Below, one piece after another: positions 23,296 through 30,076 of a stretch of 64,000 nt of DNA; the stretch's first letter is position 1; the number at the start of each line of letters is the position of its first letter. Origin of the DNA: Coprothermobacter platensis DSM 11748 (GTDB lineage Bacteria > Coprothermobacterota > Coprothermobacteria > Coprothermobacterales > Coprothermobacteraceae); assembly GCF_000378005.1 (NCBI RefSeq), contig NZ_KB899040.1:377468-441467 (forward strand), given 5' to 3'. The translations under genes and the position numbers were made by a program. The notes beneath the pieces are model-generated. The model ran no database searches. It was given only the letters and a program-made list of their open reading frames with translations, and had not been told where the DNA came from.

Positions 23296-24522
23296 ATGGC
23301 TTTTTTGAATTTGTTTGATCAGGGGAAGATAAAACAAATTGCCGAGCAATTGCCACATCCCTGCATAGAAAAGCAAAAACGGTCAGTATTAGATGCTTTG
23401 GGATATGTACTGGCGGAAGATGTCATTTGTGAAGAAGATATTCCTCCTAAAGCGCGTTCCGAAGTAGATGGTTACGCGGTCAGAAGCCGAGATGTAAAGG
23501 GAGCATCTGTGGAACGGCCTTCCCTTCTAACAAAGGTAGGGACAATAGCTGTGGATGAAGTTCCCACGTTTACACTGCTTCCCGGAGAGTGCGCGTACAT
23601 TCCCACAGGGGCAATTTTACCCCAAGATGCTGATGCTGTCGTTATGATAGAACATGCGGAAGAAAGTGGTAACTTTGTGGAAGTATTTAAGACTGTAGCT
23701 CCACTGGAAAATGTTATATCGCCTGGCGAAGATATGAAAAATGGTGATGCTGTGCTTAAGCAAGGTGATGTTATCGACGCTGCTGCAGTTGGCCTACTGA
23801 GCTATTTGGGGAAAACCGATGTGAGTGTTTATGCGCCACTGAGGGTGTATGTCGCGGCAACAGGTAATGAAATAGTAGAACCCAGTGAGGCTGCCCCTTT
23901 AGGTCGTTATCACGATGCAAACAGTTTCAGTGTAACTGCATTGCTTAATGACCATGGTTTTCTTGCGACGCGTGGTCCTATCATACCTGATGACATAACG
24001 TTGTTGAAGCAAACCCTTAAGGAAGCATCAGAACATTTTAATGCTGTAGTTTTCACAGGTGGCAGTTCGGCCGGTGTACGCGATTTGGTTGTGAATGCTT
24101 TAAGAGATGAAGGCGGAACTTTGATTGCGCATGGCTTTACCATAAAACCGGGGAAACCGACTATTATTGGTTCTATGGGCAGCAGCGTTTTCATAGGTCT
24201 TCCTGGTCATCCCATGTCCTGCTACGTTTCTGCTTCACTTATTCTTCTTCCGCTACTGCGTTCGCTGAGAAATGAAGAAATAAAACCTCTACCACTTCTC
24301 AAAGCTCGGCTAAGAACATCTGTCTTTTCTAAAATAGGCGTAGAAGAATGGATTCCCATGAAACTTGATTTTGACCATGCATCCGCAGAATTATGGGTTG
24401 AGCCTGTGTTTTCTAAATCTGCTATGGTTAGCAGTTTGGTAAGAAATGACGGATTTCTCAGGGTTCCTCCCGAAAAGGAGGGGCTGGAAATGGGAGAATT
24501 GGTGGAGGTACTGTTATTATGA
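23296..24522 (+). CDS. moeA: Molybdopterin molybdenumtransferase MoeA
   Basis: Inserts molybdate (or tungstate) into adenylated molybdopterin. The 408-residue protein shows SEVDGYAVRSRDVKGAS, GECAYIPTGAILPQDADAVV, FTGGSSAGVRD and the KPGKPTIIG/GLPGHPMSCYV metal-transfer loops of the MoeA family. First gene of the cofactor operon, followed by a second moeA overlapping by 4 nt. Confidence 0.93.
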   Translation: MAFLNLFDQGKIKQIAEQLPHPCIEKQKRSVLDALGYVLAEDVICEEDIPPKARSEVDGYAVRSRDVKGASVERPSLLTKVGTIAVDEVPTFTLLPGECAYIPTGAILPQDADAVVMIEHAEESGNFVEVFKTVAPLENVISPGEDMKNGDAVLKQGDVIDAAAVGLLSYLGKTDVSVYAPLRVYVAATGNEIVEPSEAAPLGRYHDANSFSVTALLNDHGFLATRGPIIPDDITLLKQTLKEASEHFNAVVFTGGSSAGVRDLVVNALRDEGGTLIAHGFTIKPGKPTIIGSMGSSVFIGLPGHPMSCYVSASLILLPLLRSLRNEEIKPLPLLKARLRTSVFSKIGVEEWIPMKLDFDHASAELWVEPVFSKSAMVSSLVRNDGFLRVPPEKEGLEMGELVEVLLL

Positions 24523-26363
24523 GCAATTCAAGAAAGATTTATTATAATGTGGTTTCTTTAGAAGAGGCTCGGCGCATTGCAGCCAGCCTTGCACCACAGA
24601 GAGTTACTGAAGTTGTTCCCACGCGTGTCGCCCTCAATCGTATCACAGCAGACCATGTTTTAGCTTCTCGTAACGTACCTCATTATGTGGCTTCTGCTTA
24701 CGATGGGTATGCAGTGGATGCTTCCGTAAGCTACGGTGCTTCTGAGAGTAATCCACGGGAACTTTTGACATATAGAGCTGTAAACACTGGTGATCCGCTT
24801 GAATCCAATGAGAACTGTGTTATTCCTTTAGAGGACGTAGTGGAACAAAATGGTAAGAAGCTCATTTTCAAAGCGCATGCTGAAGGAAACAATGTAAGAC
24901 AGATTGGTGAAGACGCTATAAAGGGCGATCTGCTGGTTCCTGCTCTGCACCGGCTTGAACCCATGGATTTGGCGCTTCTGCTTGCAGCTGGTGTTTTTAC
25001 TGTGCCAGTTATAAAAAAGCCCCGAGTTATTGTTATTCCTACTGGTGACGAAGTTGTTGCACCAGAAACAGATCTGGAAATAGGAAATATTCCCGAGACA
25101 AACAGTGTTTACATAACTGAAGAGCTAAAATATTATTTTGATTTTAGCGTTCTCCCTCCTGTAAAGAATGACCTCGAGGCATTGAAATCGGTTGTTGATG
25201 AAAACATTGGCAGTGCGGATATTATTATGACTATAGCGGGTTCCTCATATGGAGAGAAAGACGTTACCACACAGTTTCTTTCCGCTTCATTGGATGGTGA
25301 GGCAGATATTCTTCTACACGGTGTGAACATCAGGCCAGGGAAGCCTTTATGGCTGGGACGTTACAAGGGGAAACCCTTTGTGGCGATGCCCGGGTTCCCC
25401 GTATCTACTTGGGCTGTTTCAAACTTTGTCTTAGACGCTCTGTTGAAAGAATATTATGGTTTTATTCCTCATCCGTTCCATGATGTTTCTGCCTTAACGG
25501 GTCGGAAAGTTCCGTCTGAAGGTGGAGTTGTGGAGTTTGTCAGGGGCGTTATAGGCAAAGCCGCTGAGGGCATTTCTGTATTTATGCCACTAAACAGGGG
25601 AGCGGGAGCGATGTCCAGTGTCGTTAGCGCCAATGCCGTGCTTGCCATACCTGCCAACTCGGAGGGTTATATGGAAGGCACGAAGGTGAATCTGATGGCT
25701 CGGTATGAAGATTGGCCTTTATTGGTTGCATCTGATGACATTGCATTGAAATTCTTGCTCAGTGAATTGAGAAAACATGGAGTATTCATAAACTATGTAT
25801 TCACAGGTTCATCTACGGCTTTGCAACTTATCAAGCGTGGCTTTTCTGCCATAGCCGGTGCGCATTTGCTGTGCCCTGATGGTTCCTACAATACCTGTAT
25901 GGCACCGGAAGGTGCTATAAAAGTGCCTTTTGTTAAACGCCAGCAGGGATTCATGGTTAAGAAAAGCAATCCGAAACATGTTATGTCGGTTTCAGACTTG
26001 TGCCGCCCTGATATTGTCTTTGTTAATCGTGATAAAGGTTCTGGAACGCGTGTCTTATTGGATCATATGTTGCAGTTGGAAAAGGTGAACCCGGATGTGA
26101 TAAGAGGCTACGATCATGAAGAGGTTTCACATCTTCGAGTGGCCATGGCTGTGGAAAGCGGTGTAGCGGACGTAGGTTTGGGCATAAAGTTTGCCGCAGA
26201 TGTGGTGGGATTGGACTTCATTCCTGTTGTGGAAGAAGAATATGATTTGTTTTTCTTGCCCGATTATGCGTCTACGGCAGAAGATGTTCGGTCTGTTATG
26301 AATGATACAGCTTTTAAAGATACTATAGCGTCTATGGGTGGTTATACGCTCATAAGCGATTGA
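24519..26363 (+). CDS. MoeA fused to a periplasmic-binding-protein-like domain
   Basis: 614 residues. The first ~400 are a second MoeA (YDGYAVDASVSYGAS, GEDAIKGDLL, TGDEVV, IAGSSYGEKDV, GKPFVAMPGFPVSTWAV). The last ~210 resemble a PBP-like (LysR-substrate/ModA-type) ligand domain (LLVASDDIALKFLLSEL, VNRDKGSGTRVLLDHML, VADVGLGIKFAADVVGLDFI). MoeA-PBP fusions are known in Clostridia and archaea and may deliver or sense oxyanions. Two MoeA copies often go with use of both Mo and W (inference). Confidence 0.9.
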   Translation: MSNSRKIYYNVVSLEEARRIAASLAPQRVTEVVPTRVALNRITADHVLASRNVPHYVASAYDGYAVDASVSYGASESNPRELLTYRAVNTGDPLESNENCVIPLEDVVEQNGKKLIFKAHAEGNNVRQIGEDAIKGDLLVPALHRLEPMDLALLLAAGVFTVPVIKKPRVIVIPTGDEVVAPETDLEIGNIPETNSVYITEELKYYFDFSVLPPVKNDLEALKSVVDENIGSADIIMTIAGSSYGEKDVTTQFLSASLDGEADILLHGVNIRPGKPLWLGRYKGKPFVAMPGFPVSTWAVSNFVLDALLKEYYGFIPHPFHDVSALTGRKVPSEGGVVEFVRGVIGKAAEGISVFMPLNRGAGAMSSVVSANAVLAIPANSEGYMEGTKVNLMARYEDWPLLVASDDIALKFLLSELRKHGVFINYVFTGSSTALQLIKRGFSAIAGAHLLCPDGSYNTCMAPEGAIKVPFVKRQQGFMVKKSNPKHVMSVSDLCRPDIVFVNRDKGSGTRVLLDHMLQLEKVNPDVIRGYDHEEVSHLRVAMAVESGVADVGLGIKFAADVVGLDFIPVVEEEYDLFFLPDYASTAEDVRSVMNDTAFKDTIASMGGYTLISD

Positions 26364-26369
26364 GCAATC

Positions 26370-27305
26370 ATGCTTGATAGTTACGGCCGAAATATTGACT
26401 ACATAAGAATTTCCGTAACCGATAGGTGTAACTTTCAGTGCCTTTATTGTAGCCACCGTTTGGATGTCCTCCCACGTGAGCAAGTGCTCAGGTTTGAAGA
26501 CATATTGAACATTGTTAAAGCGGCGAAAGATCTCGGATTCAAAAAGGTTCGTTTGACTGGTGGTGAGCCACTTTTACGCCGCCACATCGAGCAATTGGTG
26601 GCCATGCTTCAGCCTGTGGGTTTGAGCATTCATATGACTACCAACGGTTACTTCCTCCATGAACTTTCCAAGCCCCTGTTTGATGCAGGATTAAATGGCG
26701 TGAACGTAAGTTTAGATTTTGTAGACGCTGAAAAATTCAGAAACATCACTAACGGCGGTCGTGTTGAAGATGTCATTGCGGGCATAGATAGTGCTTTGGA
26801 TGCAGGATTGAAAGTCAAATTAAACACGGTTTTTACTTCATGGCATACAACGGATGATATGAAACAATTGATCATGTTTTCCAAAAGTAGAAGCATACCC
26901 ATACGTTTCATAGAATTGATGCCAAAAAATGAATCGTCGTTCTCTGCCTTGTTTAGAAATATCTCTGAAGCAAAAGAAATGATGGGCGCGTTTACTAAAA
27001 TGACGGTTGAACAAGTGAGCGGTTCAGACGGCCCTGCACAGTACTTCGTAACAGAAGATGGCGTAAAGGTGGGTTTTATAAGTTTCTTTAATCTAAATCA
27101 GTGCAAACAGTGTAATAGACTCCGTGTTAGCAGTAACGGAACTATTTATCCGTGTCTTCTGAGCAATAAAAAGCTTGATGCTTTTGATGACATAAAAGCA
27201 GGTACAGATAAAACCAAAGAAGTATTATCAGAGGCCATTCTTATGAAACCTATTCATGGGAACGCCAATGAGGTGGGGCCCTATATGTCAGAGATTGGTG
27301 GTTGA
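26370..27305 (+). CDS. moaA: GTP 3',8-cyclase MoaA (radical SAM)
   Basis: First step of molybdopterin synthesis, producing 3',8-cH2GTP. The 311-residue protein has the radical SAM motif CNFQCLYCS (Cys-x3-Cys-x2-Cys), LTGGEPLLRRHI, and a C-terminal cluster with CKQCNRLRVSSNGTIYPCL. It starts 6 nt after the moeA-PBP stop. No strong Shine-Dalgarno is visible before ATG 26370. The C-terminal GG-type tail is present in modified form (MSEIGG), as expected for MoaA. Confidence 0.93.
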   Translation: MLDSYGRNIDYIRISVTDRCNFQCLYCSHRLDVLPREQVLRFEDILNIVKAAKDLGFKKVRLTGGEPLLRRHIEQLVAMLQPVGLSIHMTTNGYFLHELSKPLFDAGLNGVNVSLDFVDAEKFRNITNGGRVEDVIAGIDSALDAGLKVKLNTVFTSWHTTDDMKQLIMFSKSRSIPIRFIELMPKNESSFSALFRNISEAKEMMGAFTKMTVEQVSGSDGPAQYFVTEDGVKVGFISFFNLNQCKQCNRLRVSSNGTIYPCLLSNKKLDAFDDIKAGTDKTKEVLSEAILMKPIHGNANEVGPYMSEIGG

Positions 27306-27315
27306 TTATCCGAAT

Positions 27316-28551
27316 ATGGACACTTATGAAGAAATAACTCATGAATTAGATACAGCACCGTGGTTCGGTAGAACTCCTGAATTAACGCGTATGGACGCGC
27401 TTTTAGATGTTCTGGGCTTACCTCAATTTGGTACAAAGAACATCATCGTTACAGGTACAGACGGTAAAGGCAGTATTTGTAGTTACCTGCATTCTATCCT
27501 GAAACAGAACTATAAAGTGGGTCGTTTCATATCGCCGCATTTGGAAGAATGGACGGAACGAATAAGAGTGGGGGATGACGATATTCCCAAGGAGGATTTT
27601 GCTCGCCTTTACCTTAAGGTTATGCAAGGTGCTGAAAAAGCGCGTCCATTGTCGGGCGAAATGCCTACGGTCTTTGAACGTCTATTGGCTGTGGCGTTGC
27701 TTTATTTTCAAGAACAGCGTACCGATTGGAACGTAATCGAAGTTGGCATAGAAGGGCAGTATGATTCCACAAATCTGCTTCCCGCGAAAGCTGTGGTGGT
27801 TGCATCGGTGGGATTAGACCATATGCGTCTATTGGGCAATACTGTGCCTCAGATTGCGCATACTATCGCTTATGGTTTTAGGCCCCACAGTATCGCTGTC
27901 ATAGGGAACACAGACAAAGATGCTTCGGAAGTTCTTGAACGGCGAGCGCTGGAATATAAAGACTACGTATACCGTTATGGGCGCGATTATTGGTACGATA
28001 ACGGATTTTGTGGCTACGGAGGTAACATTCCATTTGAGATTAGCCTCAAGGGGGTTCATCAGTGGTACAATGCCTGCGCTGCCATACAAACAGTGCTTGC
28101 GCTTAATGGGAGTGCCTTGACGGTTAGCAAGAAAGACATACAGACGGGACTCAAAAATGCTTTTTGGCCCGGAAGGATGGAAACTCTTCGAGAGCATCCT
28201 TTGATGATTTTAGATGGAGCACACAACGCACATGCCGCAAAAGCGCTTAGAGAATCTCTGGACCTTTATTATCCAGGGAAAAAGTGGACAATCTTTTTTG
28301 CAGCCATGAAAGACAAAGATTGGCGATCCGTACTTCTGAATTTCATAGACATCGCTACTCACATATATGCCGTTCATATGCCTTATGAGAGGGCAGAAGA
28401 TCCATCCAATATAGTGAGTTATTTGAAAACGCAAGGTGTTTCTGCGTCTACCTGTGATGAGAGCGATGTACTGCGTTGCAAAGAAGACGCCTTGGTTTTC
28501 GGGTCTCTTTATTTAGTTGGTGATGTGAGGAGGTTGAACGATAATGCATGA
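27316..28551 (+). CDS. folC: Folylpolyglutamate/dihydrofolate synthase-like protein (FolC family)
   Basis: Mur-ligase-superfamily enzyme adding glutamate to folate or making dihydrofolate. P-loop VTGTDGKGSICSYLHS, FISPHLEEWTERIRVG, VVASVGLDHMRLLGNT and LILDGAHNAHAAKALRE-type motifs are present. From ATG 27316 the P-loop lies near residue 47, as in known FolC; GTG 27298 is an alternative start overlapping moaA. It sits inside the molybdenum cofactor operon between moaA and the moaC pair, an unusual place. Whether the link is functional is unknown. Confidence 0.85.
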   Translation: MDTYEEITHELDTAPWFGRTPELTRMDALLDVLGLPQFGTKNIIVTGTDGKGSICSYLHSILKQNYKVGRFISPHLEEWTERIRVGDDDIPKEDFARLYLKVMQGAEKARPLSGEMPTVFERLLAVALLYFQEQRTDWNVIEVGIEGQYDSTNLLPAKAVVVASVGLDHMRLLGNTVPQIAHTIAYGFRPHSIAVIGNTDKDASEVLERRALEYKDYVYRYGRDYWYDNGFCGYGGNIPFEISLKGVHQWYNACAAIQTVLALNGSALTVSKKDIQTGLKNAFWPGRMETLREHPLMILDGAHNAHAAKALRESLDLYYPGKKWTIFFAAMKDKDWRSVLLNFIDIATHIYAVHMPYERAEDPSNIVSYLKTQGVSASTCDESDVLRCKEDALVFGSLYLVGDVRRLNDNA

Positions 28552-29068
28552 GTTTAGTCATTTCAAAAATGATGAAGCCATAATGGTAAACATCGGTGAG
28601 AAGTTTCTTACCCATAGGCGTACAAAGGCAGTTCTTTTCGGAGCTCGGTTCAACAAACGATTGGCAAGAAAGGCCATGTCCCTTACTCATGAGTTTATCC
28701 CCATGGCACATCCTCTGCCCATGTCTCCCATGGATGCAACGTTTAAGAAAAACGGCAACATGGTTGAAGTAGAAATACATTGTGATTATAAAACTGGTCT
28801 GGAACTTGAATCGCTCATGGCATCCACAGGTTTCATGCAGGATTTGCCTTATCTTGGATTTGCTGCTGTCACGCATAAGGAAGGTGGGAAATCCGGCATT
28901 ATGGATAGAAAGATAGAGACTTACAAAAAGGGAGAAACCAGTTTGGATAAAGGTGTATGGTATCGTGTTGTAGGAAAAGGTTGGCTTAAGCTCACTGATC
29001 ATGGAGAAGAAAAAGTCTCTGATTTTGAACTTGAAGAGGGGGACATAATCATATGCAGCTTACAGTAA
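28544..29068 (+). CDS. MoaC-like protein A (His/Glu half of active site) with C-terminal extension
   Basis: Divergent homolog of cyclic pyranopterin monophosphate synthase. Residues 3-20 match the MoaC start (HFKNDEAIMVNIGEK). IPMAHPLPM gives His56 (E. coli His77), and YKTGLELES gives Lys83, Glu87 and Glu89 (E. coli Lys108, Glu112, Glu114). GGKSG (114-118) is kept. The YDMxKAV helix with the catalytic Asp/Lys (E. coli Asp128, Lys131) is deleted, and the Lys51 equivalent is Val30. About 50 extra residues follow, with a hydrophobic/acidic end (ELEEGDIIICS), of unknown fold. AGGAGG precedes ATG 28544. It overlaps gene B by 16 nt. Confidence 0.82.
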   Translation: MHEFSHFKNDEAIMVNIGEKFLTHRRTKAVLFGARFNKRLARKAMSLTHEFIPMAHPLPMSPMDATFKKNGNMVEVEIHCDYKTGLELESLMASTGFMQDLPYLGFAAVTHKEGGKSGIMDRKIETYKKGETSLDKGVWYRVVGKGWLKLTDHGEEKVSDFELEEGDIIICSLQ

Positions 29069-29583
29069 GTGCAAAAGGCACTGTAGCATTTAGACCTGAT
29101 AAATTCGAATTGGTTTCTTCAGAGAAACTGCCTAAGGGACCTTTTCTGGAAACAGCACGTTTATCAGCCTTTTTAGCGGCAAAACGTGATAGTTTCTTTG
29201 GAACAAAGGTTTTCATCAATCACATGGAGGTAAATCATCACTGGGGCCCTTCGGAACTCACCTTTACCGTACGAATGGTTGTCGATGGCAACTATGACGA
29301 CATAATACGAAGAGTATGGTTTGCAGCTTTTACATGTTGTATCACATGCTACGACATGGTAAAGGCTGTTGACCCTGATGCCATCATTGAGGATGTTTCA
29401 CTATTGTCAATAAATGACAAAACATTGCCTGTGAAGCCCTTACAACAGGTGAACCCGGTTTCCGATGTAGCGTTTTCTCCTACTGTCATCATCTCAGGTG
29501 GGAAAACTATTCATGCAGGAGCAGTTTTACCTAACCAGTCGAAGATATATGTGAGGTGCCTTGACCATGAACAATGCGAGTGA
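29053..29583 (+). CDS. MoaC-like protein B (Lys/Asp half of active site) with C-terminal extension
   Basis: Second divergent MoaC homolog, 176 residues. KGPFLETARLSAFLAAKR aligns with E. coli KGDVFATARIAGIQAAKR, giving Lys28 for Lys51. CYDMVKAVDPDAIIEDVSLL aligns with the YDMCKAV helix, giving Asp101 and Lys104 for Asp128 and Lys131. The HPL loop is replaced (VFINHMEVNHHW) and the GKTGVEMEA loop by VDGNYDDIIRR, so the His/Glu set is missing. A ~50-residue tail follows (FSPTVIISGGKTIHAG). The loss pattern is the mirror image of gene A. Confidence 0.8.
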   Translation: MQLTVSAKGTVAFRPDKFELVSSEKLPKGPFLETARLSAFLAAKRDSFFGTKVFINHMEVNHHWGPSELTFTVRMVVDGNYDDIIRRVWFAAFTCCITCYDMVKAVDPDAIIEDVSLLSINDKTLPVKPLQQVNPVSDVAFSPTVIISGGKTIHAGAVLPNQSKIYVRCLDHEQCE

Positions 29584-30076
29584 TAAAAACATGCAGTCAT
29601 CGTTAAGCTGTTGCATTCTCATATGCTCTGACAGAAGTTTTAGAGGTGAACGTGAAGACAAAACAGGACCTTTGCTTGTAGCAAAGGCAGAAGAGTTGGG
29701 TTATGCTGTAAAAGAGTTAAGAATACTACCTGATGAACGGCAATTGATCGCTGAACAAATTCGGCGTTGGTGTGAACTACCTGTTGACCTGATTTTAACA
29801 TCAGGAGGCACTGGGGTAGGGCCTCGTGACGTCACCCCTGAAGCTACCATGGATGTCGTTGATAGAGAAATTCCCGGGATTCCTCTTATGGCACTCATGT
29901 TTTCTCTTAAAAGCACACCAAACGCCGCATTATCGCGGGCTAAGGCTGGAGTTATACAACAAACCATAGTGGTGAATTTGCCGGGTTCACCAAACGGTGC
30001 TTCCGATATTTTCCAGCTTATCGACCCTGCGTTAAAGCATGCTATTCCAATTGTTCACGGGCAGATTATCGAGTGA
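29567..30076 (+). CDS. mog: Molybdopterin adenylyltransferase (MogA/MoaB family)
   Basis: Adenylates molybdopterin before metal insertion. Core motifs ICSDRSFRGEREDKTGPLL, LILTSGGTGVGPRDVTPEA and VVNLPGSPNGA are diagnostic. ATG 29567 is preferred, with GAGGTG 9 nt upstream; TTG 29561 is too close. About 169 residues. Last gene of the operon; convergent with the ROK kinase gene, which it overlaps by about 11 bp. Confidence 0.92.
   Translation: MNNASDKNMQSSLSCCILICSDRSFRGEREDKTGPLLVAKAEELGYAVKELRILPDERQLIAEQIRRWCELPVDLILTSGGTGVGPRDVTPEATMDVVDREIPGIPLMALMFSLKSTPNAALSRAKAGVIQQTIVVNLPGSPNGASDIFQLIDPALKHAIPIVHGQIIE

Follow-up and report, generated by a model that had tools for sequence, protein, structure and literature searches.

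The window, a 64,000-nucleotide stretch of a Coprothermobacter platensis DSM 11748 contig (NZ_KB899040.1), contains a molybdenum/tungsten (Mo/W) cofactor operon in which two adjacent genes encode MoaC-like proteins, hereafter A and B. MoaC is an ancient enzyme of Mo/W cofactor synthesis, present in all domains of life, whose substrate, 3',8-cH2GTP, is the product of MoaA; to our knowledge, it has always been described as a homo-oligomer. The genes of the operon and the signal in front of B, all on the forward strand, are the following:

23296..24522, +: moeA, molybdopterin molybdotransferase (profile matches)
24519..26363, +: second moeA, fused to a PBP-like domain (profile matches)
26370..27305, +: moaA, GTP 3',8-cyclase; both Cys motifs and a Gly-Gly at the C-terminus are present (283.7 bits against a cut-off of 284.05)
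27256..28551, +: folC, folylpolyglutamate/dihydrofolate synthase, between moaA and A (profile matches; start as listed, the true start being probably downstream)
28544..29068, +: protein A, MoaC-family subunit of 174 aa with the H77/E112/E114/R26/K147-GGKSG half-site (Pfam, alignment with 29 ordinary MoaCs, orthologues in five further genomes)
29035..29042, +: AGAGGGGG, ribosome-binding-site-like, within A and 10 nt upstream of the ATG of B (sequence)
29053..29583, +: protein B, MoaC-family subunit of 176 aa with the K51/D128/K131 half-site (Pfam, core model matching MoaC structures, orthologues in five further genomes)
29561..30076, +: mogA/moaB-type molybdopterin adenylyltransferase gene, directly 3' of B (profile matches)

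As in the original prediction, the A/B pair lies in a cofactor operon with moaA and mogA, and the open reading frames of A and B overlap by 16 nt; the position of AGAGGGGG inside A suggests that translation of B is coupled to that of A. The order moaA-(folC)-A-B-mogA is common to both families of Coprothermobacterales that carry the pair. The presence of the folate gene folC inside the operon is peculiar to the family of the window and absent from the second-family locus L028. The cofactor operon of the second family is extended by a radical SAM gene resembling lipA (lipoyl synthase), which lies 3' of mogA and overlaps it (L028 11361-12335; L029 1546-2508). A search of Rfam families near the operon gave no molybdenum or tungsten cofactor riboswitch.

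Family membership and predicted structures

Profile searches place both proteins in the MoaC family, as had been proposed from an alignment by eye. A and B score 31.4 and 47.8 bits, respectively, with the Pfam MoaC family (PF01967), above its curated cut-off of 27, as do their orthologues, and Pfam gave no family besides MoaC for either of them. The match of A is confined to the middle of the protein (residues 45-94). Neither reaches the cut-offs of the NCBIfam MoaC equivalogs (TIGR00581, NF006870, and NF008999), the best scores being 48.3 against 171 for A, and 47.8 against 162 and 46.2 against 141.5 for B. In sequence comparisons with solved structures, the match of A to MoaC is limited to residues 44-95 (best 2ohd, E = 1.5e-7), and that of B covers nearly its whole core (4fdf, E = 2.9e-9). 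The MoaC fold is ferredoxin-like with an extra helix, and its solved structures include those of Escherichia coli (1ekr, 4pyd, and 4pya), Mycobacterium tuberculosis MoaC2 (4fdf), and Thermus thermophilus (2ide and 3jqm). The core of the predicted B structure has mostly pLDDT values of 70-88, dropping below 50 from residue 126 on, and the best structure matches of this model are all MoaC (4fdf, with E = 1.5e-9, 4pyd, and 4pya). The AlphaFold prediction for A (two sequences) is poor, with a pLDDT of 43, and does not by itself establish its fold.

Active-site residues and the dimer interface

We aligned six A and six B proteins with 29 ordinary MoaCs, two of the latter from the same phylum. Positions follow the E. 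coli MoaC sequence, whose numbering agrees at the key positions with the titles of the PDB entries 1eks (D128A) and 4pya (K51A). The segments of A and B relevant to the active site, together with the C-terminal tails, are the following:

28583..28618, +: A residues 14-25, M-V...K20...R25, equal to E. coli M15-V16-K21-R26, invariant in ordinary MoaC and missing from B (alignment)
28709..28711, +: A His56, equal to E. coli His77 and to M. tuberculosis MoaC2 His88, the residue of the partner chain (alignment; chain from PMC3602415)
28793..28810, +: A T84-G85-L-E87-L-E89, equal to E. coli T109-G110-V-E112-M-E114 (alignment)
28877..28897, +: A K112-E-G-G-K-S-G, equal to the E. coli K147-S-GGKSG loop, in all A and in no B (alignment)
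28898..29065, +: A tail, 56 aa, weakly resembling the MoaC beta1-alpha1-K51 loop segment (weak profile matches)
29134..29136, +: B Lys28, equal to E. coli Lys51 and M. tuberculosis MoaC2 Lys62 (alignment)
29353..29364, +: B D101-M-V-K104, equal to E. coli D128-M-C-K131 and containing the equivalents of M. tuberculosis MoaC2 Asp137/Lys140 (alignment)
29413..29580, +: B tail, 56 aa, of low model confidence (pLDDT <50 from residue 126)

Six catalytic residues (K51, H77, E112, E114, D128, and K131) are 100% conserved in the 29 ordinary MoaCs. H77, E112, and E114 are kept in 6/6 A proteins and K51, D128, and K131 in 6/6 B proteins, with zero crossover: in none of the six genomes does an A or a B carry all six on one chain, each having three and its partner the other three. 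The original assignment of H56, E87, and E89 in A, of K28, D101, and K104 in B, and of the loss of H77, E112, and E114 from B stands in this alignment. It had also counted K83 of A, the equivalent of K108, which does exist but is a poor marker: K108 does not belong to the columns with 90% or higher conservation in ordinary MoaC, has Tyr in its place in the A proteins of the second family and, not being invariant, should not be counted in the partition. Likewise, A has indeed lost K51, D128, and K131, but not the whole YDMxKAV helix as had been thought, since the N-terminal half with E112 and E114 remains; the C-terminal part is deleted in the A proteins of the window's family and present in those of the second, with D128 replaced by Ala and K131 by Asp.

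The partition is wider than initially reported, as M15-V16-K21-R26 and K147-x-GGKSG are kept by A only. Considering a column as kept when fully conserved throughout the six A or throughout the six B proteins, the 48 columns conserved at 90% or more in ordinary MoaC comprise 17 kept in A only, 8 in B only, 1 in both, and 22 in neither. The ionisable invariant columns kept are H6, K21, R26, H77, E112, E114, K147, and K151 in A, and K51, D128, K131, and K67 in B, the last of these being kept in most A proteins too; the only one that varies is D17, which is Asn in three A proteins. Ionisable columns were retained far more often than the others (12/13 vs 14/35, Fisher p = 0.001), and the columns kept by A and those kept by B cluster in five blocks along the chain (shuffling, p = 0.001). 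This pattern of retention and clustering across six A and six B proteins excludes chance as the cause of the partition. When complementarity was tested simply across the full set of 48 conserved columns, the result was p = 0.07 (p = 0.036 with a looser criterion), a weak value because many structural residues are missing from both proteins, the signal residing in the catalytic residues. C76 and M113, near-invariant in MoaC, are absent from both A and B; the MoaC-MOSC protein of genome G008 (see below) has Thr at the first of these positions, so that C76 is not strictly required.

An essential aspect of the original proposal was that the residue sets of A and B lie opposite one another. In the M. 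tuberculosis MoaC2 structure, Lys62, Asp137, and Lys140 of one chain touch the modelled ligand together with His88 of its partner, which agrees with the contacts in the GTP-bound T. thermophilus enzyme, and the sheets of the two chains merge into one of eight strands, three such dimers making the hexamer (PMC3602415). K28, D101, and K104 of B align exactly on Lys62, Asp137, and Lys140, and the F-I-P-M-A-H56-P stretch of A corresponds to the LIPLCHQ loop that contains His88 (PMC3602415). Hence B supplies the residues of one chain and A the His of the other; the split follows the chain boundaries, and a complete site needs an A-B pair. The long helix of B is unbroken over residues 81-106 in the predicted model, which would leave its E112 and D128 ends about 24 Å apart (16 residues x 1.5 Å), too far for a shared site made by one chain. 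E112 and E114 therefore seem, from this model, to belong with H77 on the partner chain, where we also infer the N-terminal segment (R26) and the K147/GGKSG loop to lie. Across A and B all six catalytic residues are present, as expected of a two-subunit cyclic pyranopterin monophosphate (cPMP) synthase, with E112/E114 and the GGKSG loop presumably facing the B residues.

The same data bear on the possibility that just one of the proteins, for example B, catalyses the reaction despite its missing residues and that its partner has a regulatory or structural role, such as that of a scaffold for MoaA or MogA. B does outscore A in the Pfam MoaC search and its core models well, both proteins carry additional tails, and a single-copy MoaC diverged at the K51 loop exists at locus L086 (see below). 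We nevertheless consider this possibility improbable: the residues that B lacks (H77, E112, and E114) and those that A lacks (K51, D128, and K131) are all invariant in the 29 ordinary MoaCs, K51 and D128 are the sites mutated in solved structures (4pya K51A and 1eks D128A), and a mere scaffold would have no reason to retain exactly the residues missing from its partner through more than 70% divergence.

Distribution and divergence in Coprothermobacterales

Among the nine genomes of our phylum set, the A+B pair occurs in four of the family of the window (G000, the window's genome, G001, G002, and G004, the Coprothermobacteraceae MAG Ch108) and in two of the second family of the order (G005 and G006). 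A near-identical A fragment at the edge of a G006 contig, beside moaA (L030 1-339, contig C244), is probably the same locus split by assembly or a strain variant. A and B are the only PF01967 matches in the window's genome, in line with the earlier surmise that it has no standard moaC, and the same search found no ordinary MoaC in G001, G002, G004, G005, or G006. The estimated 91% completeness of the window's genome leaves a gap that is closed by G001, a single contig estimated to be 99% complete. The less complete G003 (68%) gave no match to the MoaC pair.

The second-family proteins are only 27-29% (A) and 19-23% (B) identical to those of the window, and the partition is identical: A has FIPMTHPIP and TGMEVE and has lost the K51 loop, and B has TPKGD and LLDMFKSV, with H77, E112, and E114 replaced. 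The conservation of the same partition at such divergence supports the A-B reading. Loss in the second family is mostly by substitution, whereas the window's family has deleted the corresponding segments; as useless parts have been shortened by deletion in the latter, the second family looks less decayed. The third family of the phylum (G008), which serves as outgroup, has two ordinary MoaCs, one of them fused to a MOSC domain. The two G008 moaC genes lie on different contigs (L032 5249-6169 and L033 3666-4109), and we did not find MoaE in this genome (93% complete).

A and B are under purifying selection, with dN/dS values of 0.02 (A) and 0.10 (B) between G001 and G002, compared with 0.13 and 0.26 for the neighbouring folC and mogA, and contain no internal stops. 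These values contradict the idea that they are decaying pseudogenes or an assembly artefact, an ordinary moaC being missing from the assemblies. Such an idea might be prompted by the 91% completeness of the window's genome and the heavy divergence of the sequences, but the pair is intact in six genomes of two families, including the single-contig G001, so that we give it almost no credit. In phylogenetic trees, the A proteins of both families form a single clade (98% and 90% in two analyses); the B proteins remained ungrouped in the free tree, although a B clade or an A+B clade was not rejected and had a higher likelihood when constrained (p-AU 0.69 and 0.77). Branches are long (1.5-5 changes per site), too long for the tree to date the split.

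Other genes indicate a need for the reaction. MoaE was found in 7/7 genomes of the order, G003 among them, MoaD-like proteins in 5/5 genomes tested (one match in the window's genome ending about 40 nt before the MoaE match), and 3-4 AOR-like (aldehyde:ferredoxin oxidoreductase) genes in each of the six A+B genomes. Together with an intact MoaA, they imply that the cofactor pathway is present and, judging by gene content, it looks active along with its consumers. Since this pathway needs a cPMP-making enzyme and no other MoaC was seen, A+B are the only candidate. The very fast divergence from ordinary MoaC apparent in the branch lengths, as well as scores far under the NCBIfam equivalog cut-offs, could also be read as signs that the heteromer has left MoaC chemistry for a related pterin or nucleotide, the true cPMP synthase being an unrecognised non-homologous enzyme. 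This seems very improbable, even more so than catalysis by a single partner, because the pair retains all six catalytic residues, in each of the two families its genes are found between moaA and mogA, and the pathway requires a MoaC for which no other gene was found.

A candidate heteromeric cPMP synthase and its relation to known MoaCs

A and B very probably constitute a heteromeric cPMP synthase of Coprothermobacterales that arose by duplication of MoaC and reciprocal loss of half-sites. Neither of the contrary results that could be checked, an ordinary moaC elsewhere in the genome or residue sets that do not face each other, appeared. In the scenario that we favour, duplication of an ordinary homo-oligomeric MoaC would have been followed by loss of the K51 loop and of the D128/K131 end of the long helix in copy A, and of the N-terminal segment, the H77 loop, E112/E114, and the GGKSG loop in copy B. 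The active sites of ordinary MoaC are situated at dimer interfaces, where K51, D128, and K131 are supplied by one chain and H77 by the other. An A-B dimer would have one empty site and one complete site, formed by K51, D128, and K131 of B with H77 and, presumably, R26, E112/E114, and K147-GGKSG of A. Homodimers, whether A-A or B-B, would have no complete site, which is strong reason to predict an obligate hetero-oligomeric enzyme, both complex formation and catalysis being predictions. The complete site would convert 3',8-cH2GTP into cPMP for the tungsten/molybdenum cofactor. If the trimer-of-dimers architecture has been retained, the stoichiometry is probably A3B3, a hexamer with three sites rather than six. 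A more far-reaching version, which we find rather unlikely, would make the A3B3 cPMP synthase obligate throughout the order, with half of the ancestral sites dead and the vacated pocket, like the lineage-specific tails, put to new use, for example in docking MoaA and passing on the unstable compound that it makes, or in regulation of the enzyme.

The C-terminal tails noticed at the outset (then put at about 50 residues) are real and span about 56 residues in each window protein and about 95-108 in the second family. Pfam detected neither MOSC nor any other known domain in them, and the B tail does not match the MoaC profile. In the A tail (WYRVVGKGWLKLTDHGEEKVSDFELEEGDIII), residues are spaced as in the MoaC beta1-alpha1-K51 loop (AKGxxK...GDV), Glu or Ala taking the place of Lys51. 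As a relocated copy of this segment it is statistically weak: hmmsearch gives 0.0 to 1.9 bits, with 1-47 of 1000 shuffles equally good, and hhalign a probability of 7%, though beating 200/200 column shuffles. The low-confidence A model shows only strands in the tail and has the beta1 strand at its normal place, and the tails of the second family do not match the beta1-alpha1-K51 segment.

The arrangement appears to be rare. MoaC-family matches occur in 228 of 386 surveyed genomes, among which genuine weak matches without a strong one are restricted to Coprothermobacterales and no further split MoaC was seen. Weak matches in G107 and G286, examined by eye as possible further splits, were discarded as ribosomal protein S11-like and biotinyl-domain-like frames. 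In 389 genomes of a differently centred set searched with an A profile, the MoaC matches, taken as a whole, mostly span the ordinary domain. Two divergent MoaCs were noticed along the way. One is the single-copy MoaC encoded next to moaA in L086 (G138, ~1459-1924), which has seemingly lost the K51-Gly-Asp loop (SQKAQQELALTIRL) and retains H77, E112, E114, D128, and K131. The other is a 383-aa protein of L090 (G254, minus strand, 1212-2361) with a degenerate MoaC-like domain (34 bits) and a C-terminal hydrophobic stretch; G254 also carries an ordinary MoaC. The initial remark that no description of such a split was known agrees with the open-access literature, where we found no MoaC heteromer and no paper naming MoaC together with Coprothermobacter.

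A natural split of this kind separates the half-sites, so that each can be mutated alone without the doubling imposed by symmetry, and makes it possible to ask which chain serves which step of the unusual formation of the pyranopterin ring. It also shows, in a clean natural example, how duplication can lead to complementary losses where subunits meet, and the two families have reached different stages of decay. In genome annotation, A and B would pass as a pair of weak or fragmentary MoaCs, and the pathway would be scored as doubtful.

The formation of heteromers by duplication of homomers is a general phenomenon (PMC7480870), and A and B resemble the cases described there in that a duplicated homo-oligomer would have become a hetero-oligomer, an outcome for which we found no MoaC example in open-access papers. 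The nearest MoaC relatives in the phylum, the MoaC-MOSC protein and the second MoaC of G008, a sister lineage, likewise represent two moaC genes in one genome, but differ in that each has the full catalytic set and they are located on different contigs. Whereas ordinary MoaC is the product of one gene and forms a homo-oligomer in which every chain carries all the residues, in Coprothermobacterales two genes encode reciprocal halves of the site, each extended by a C-terminal tail.
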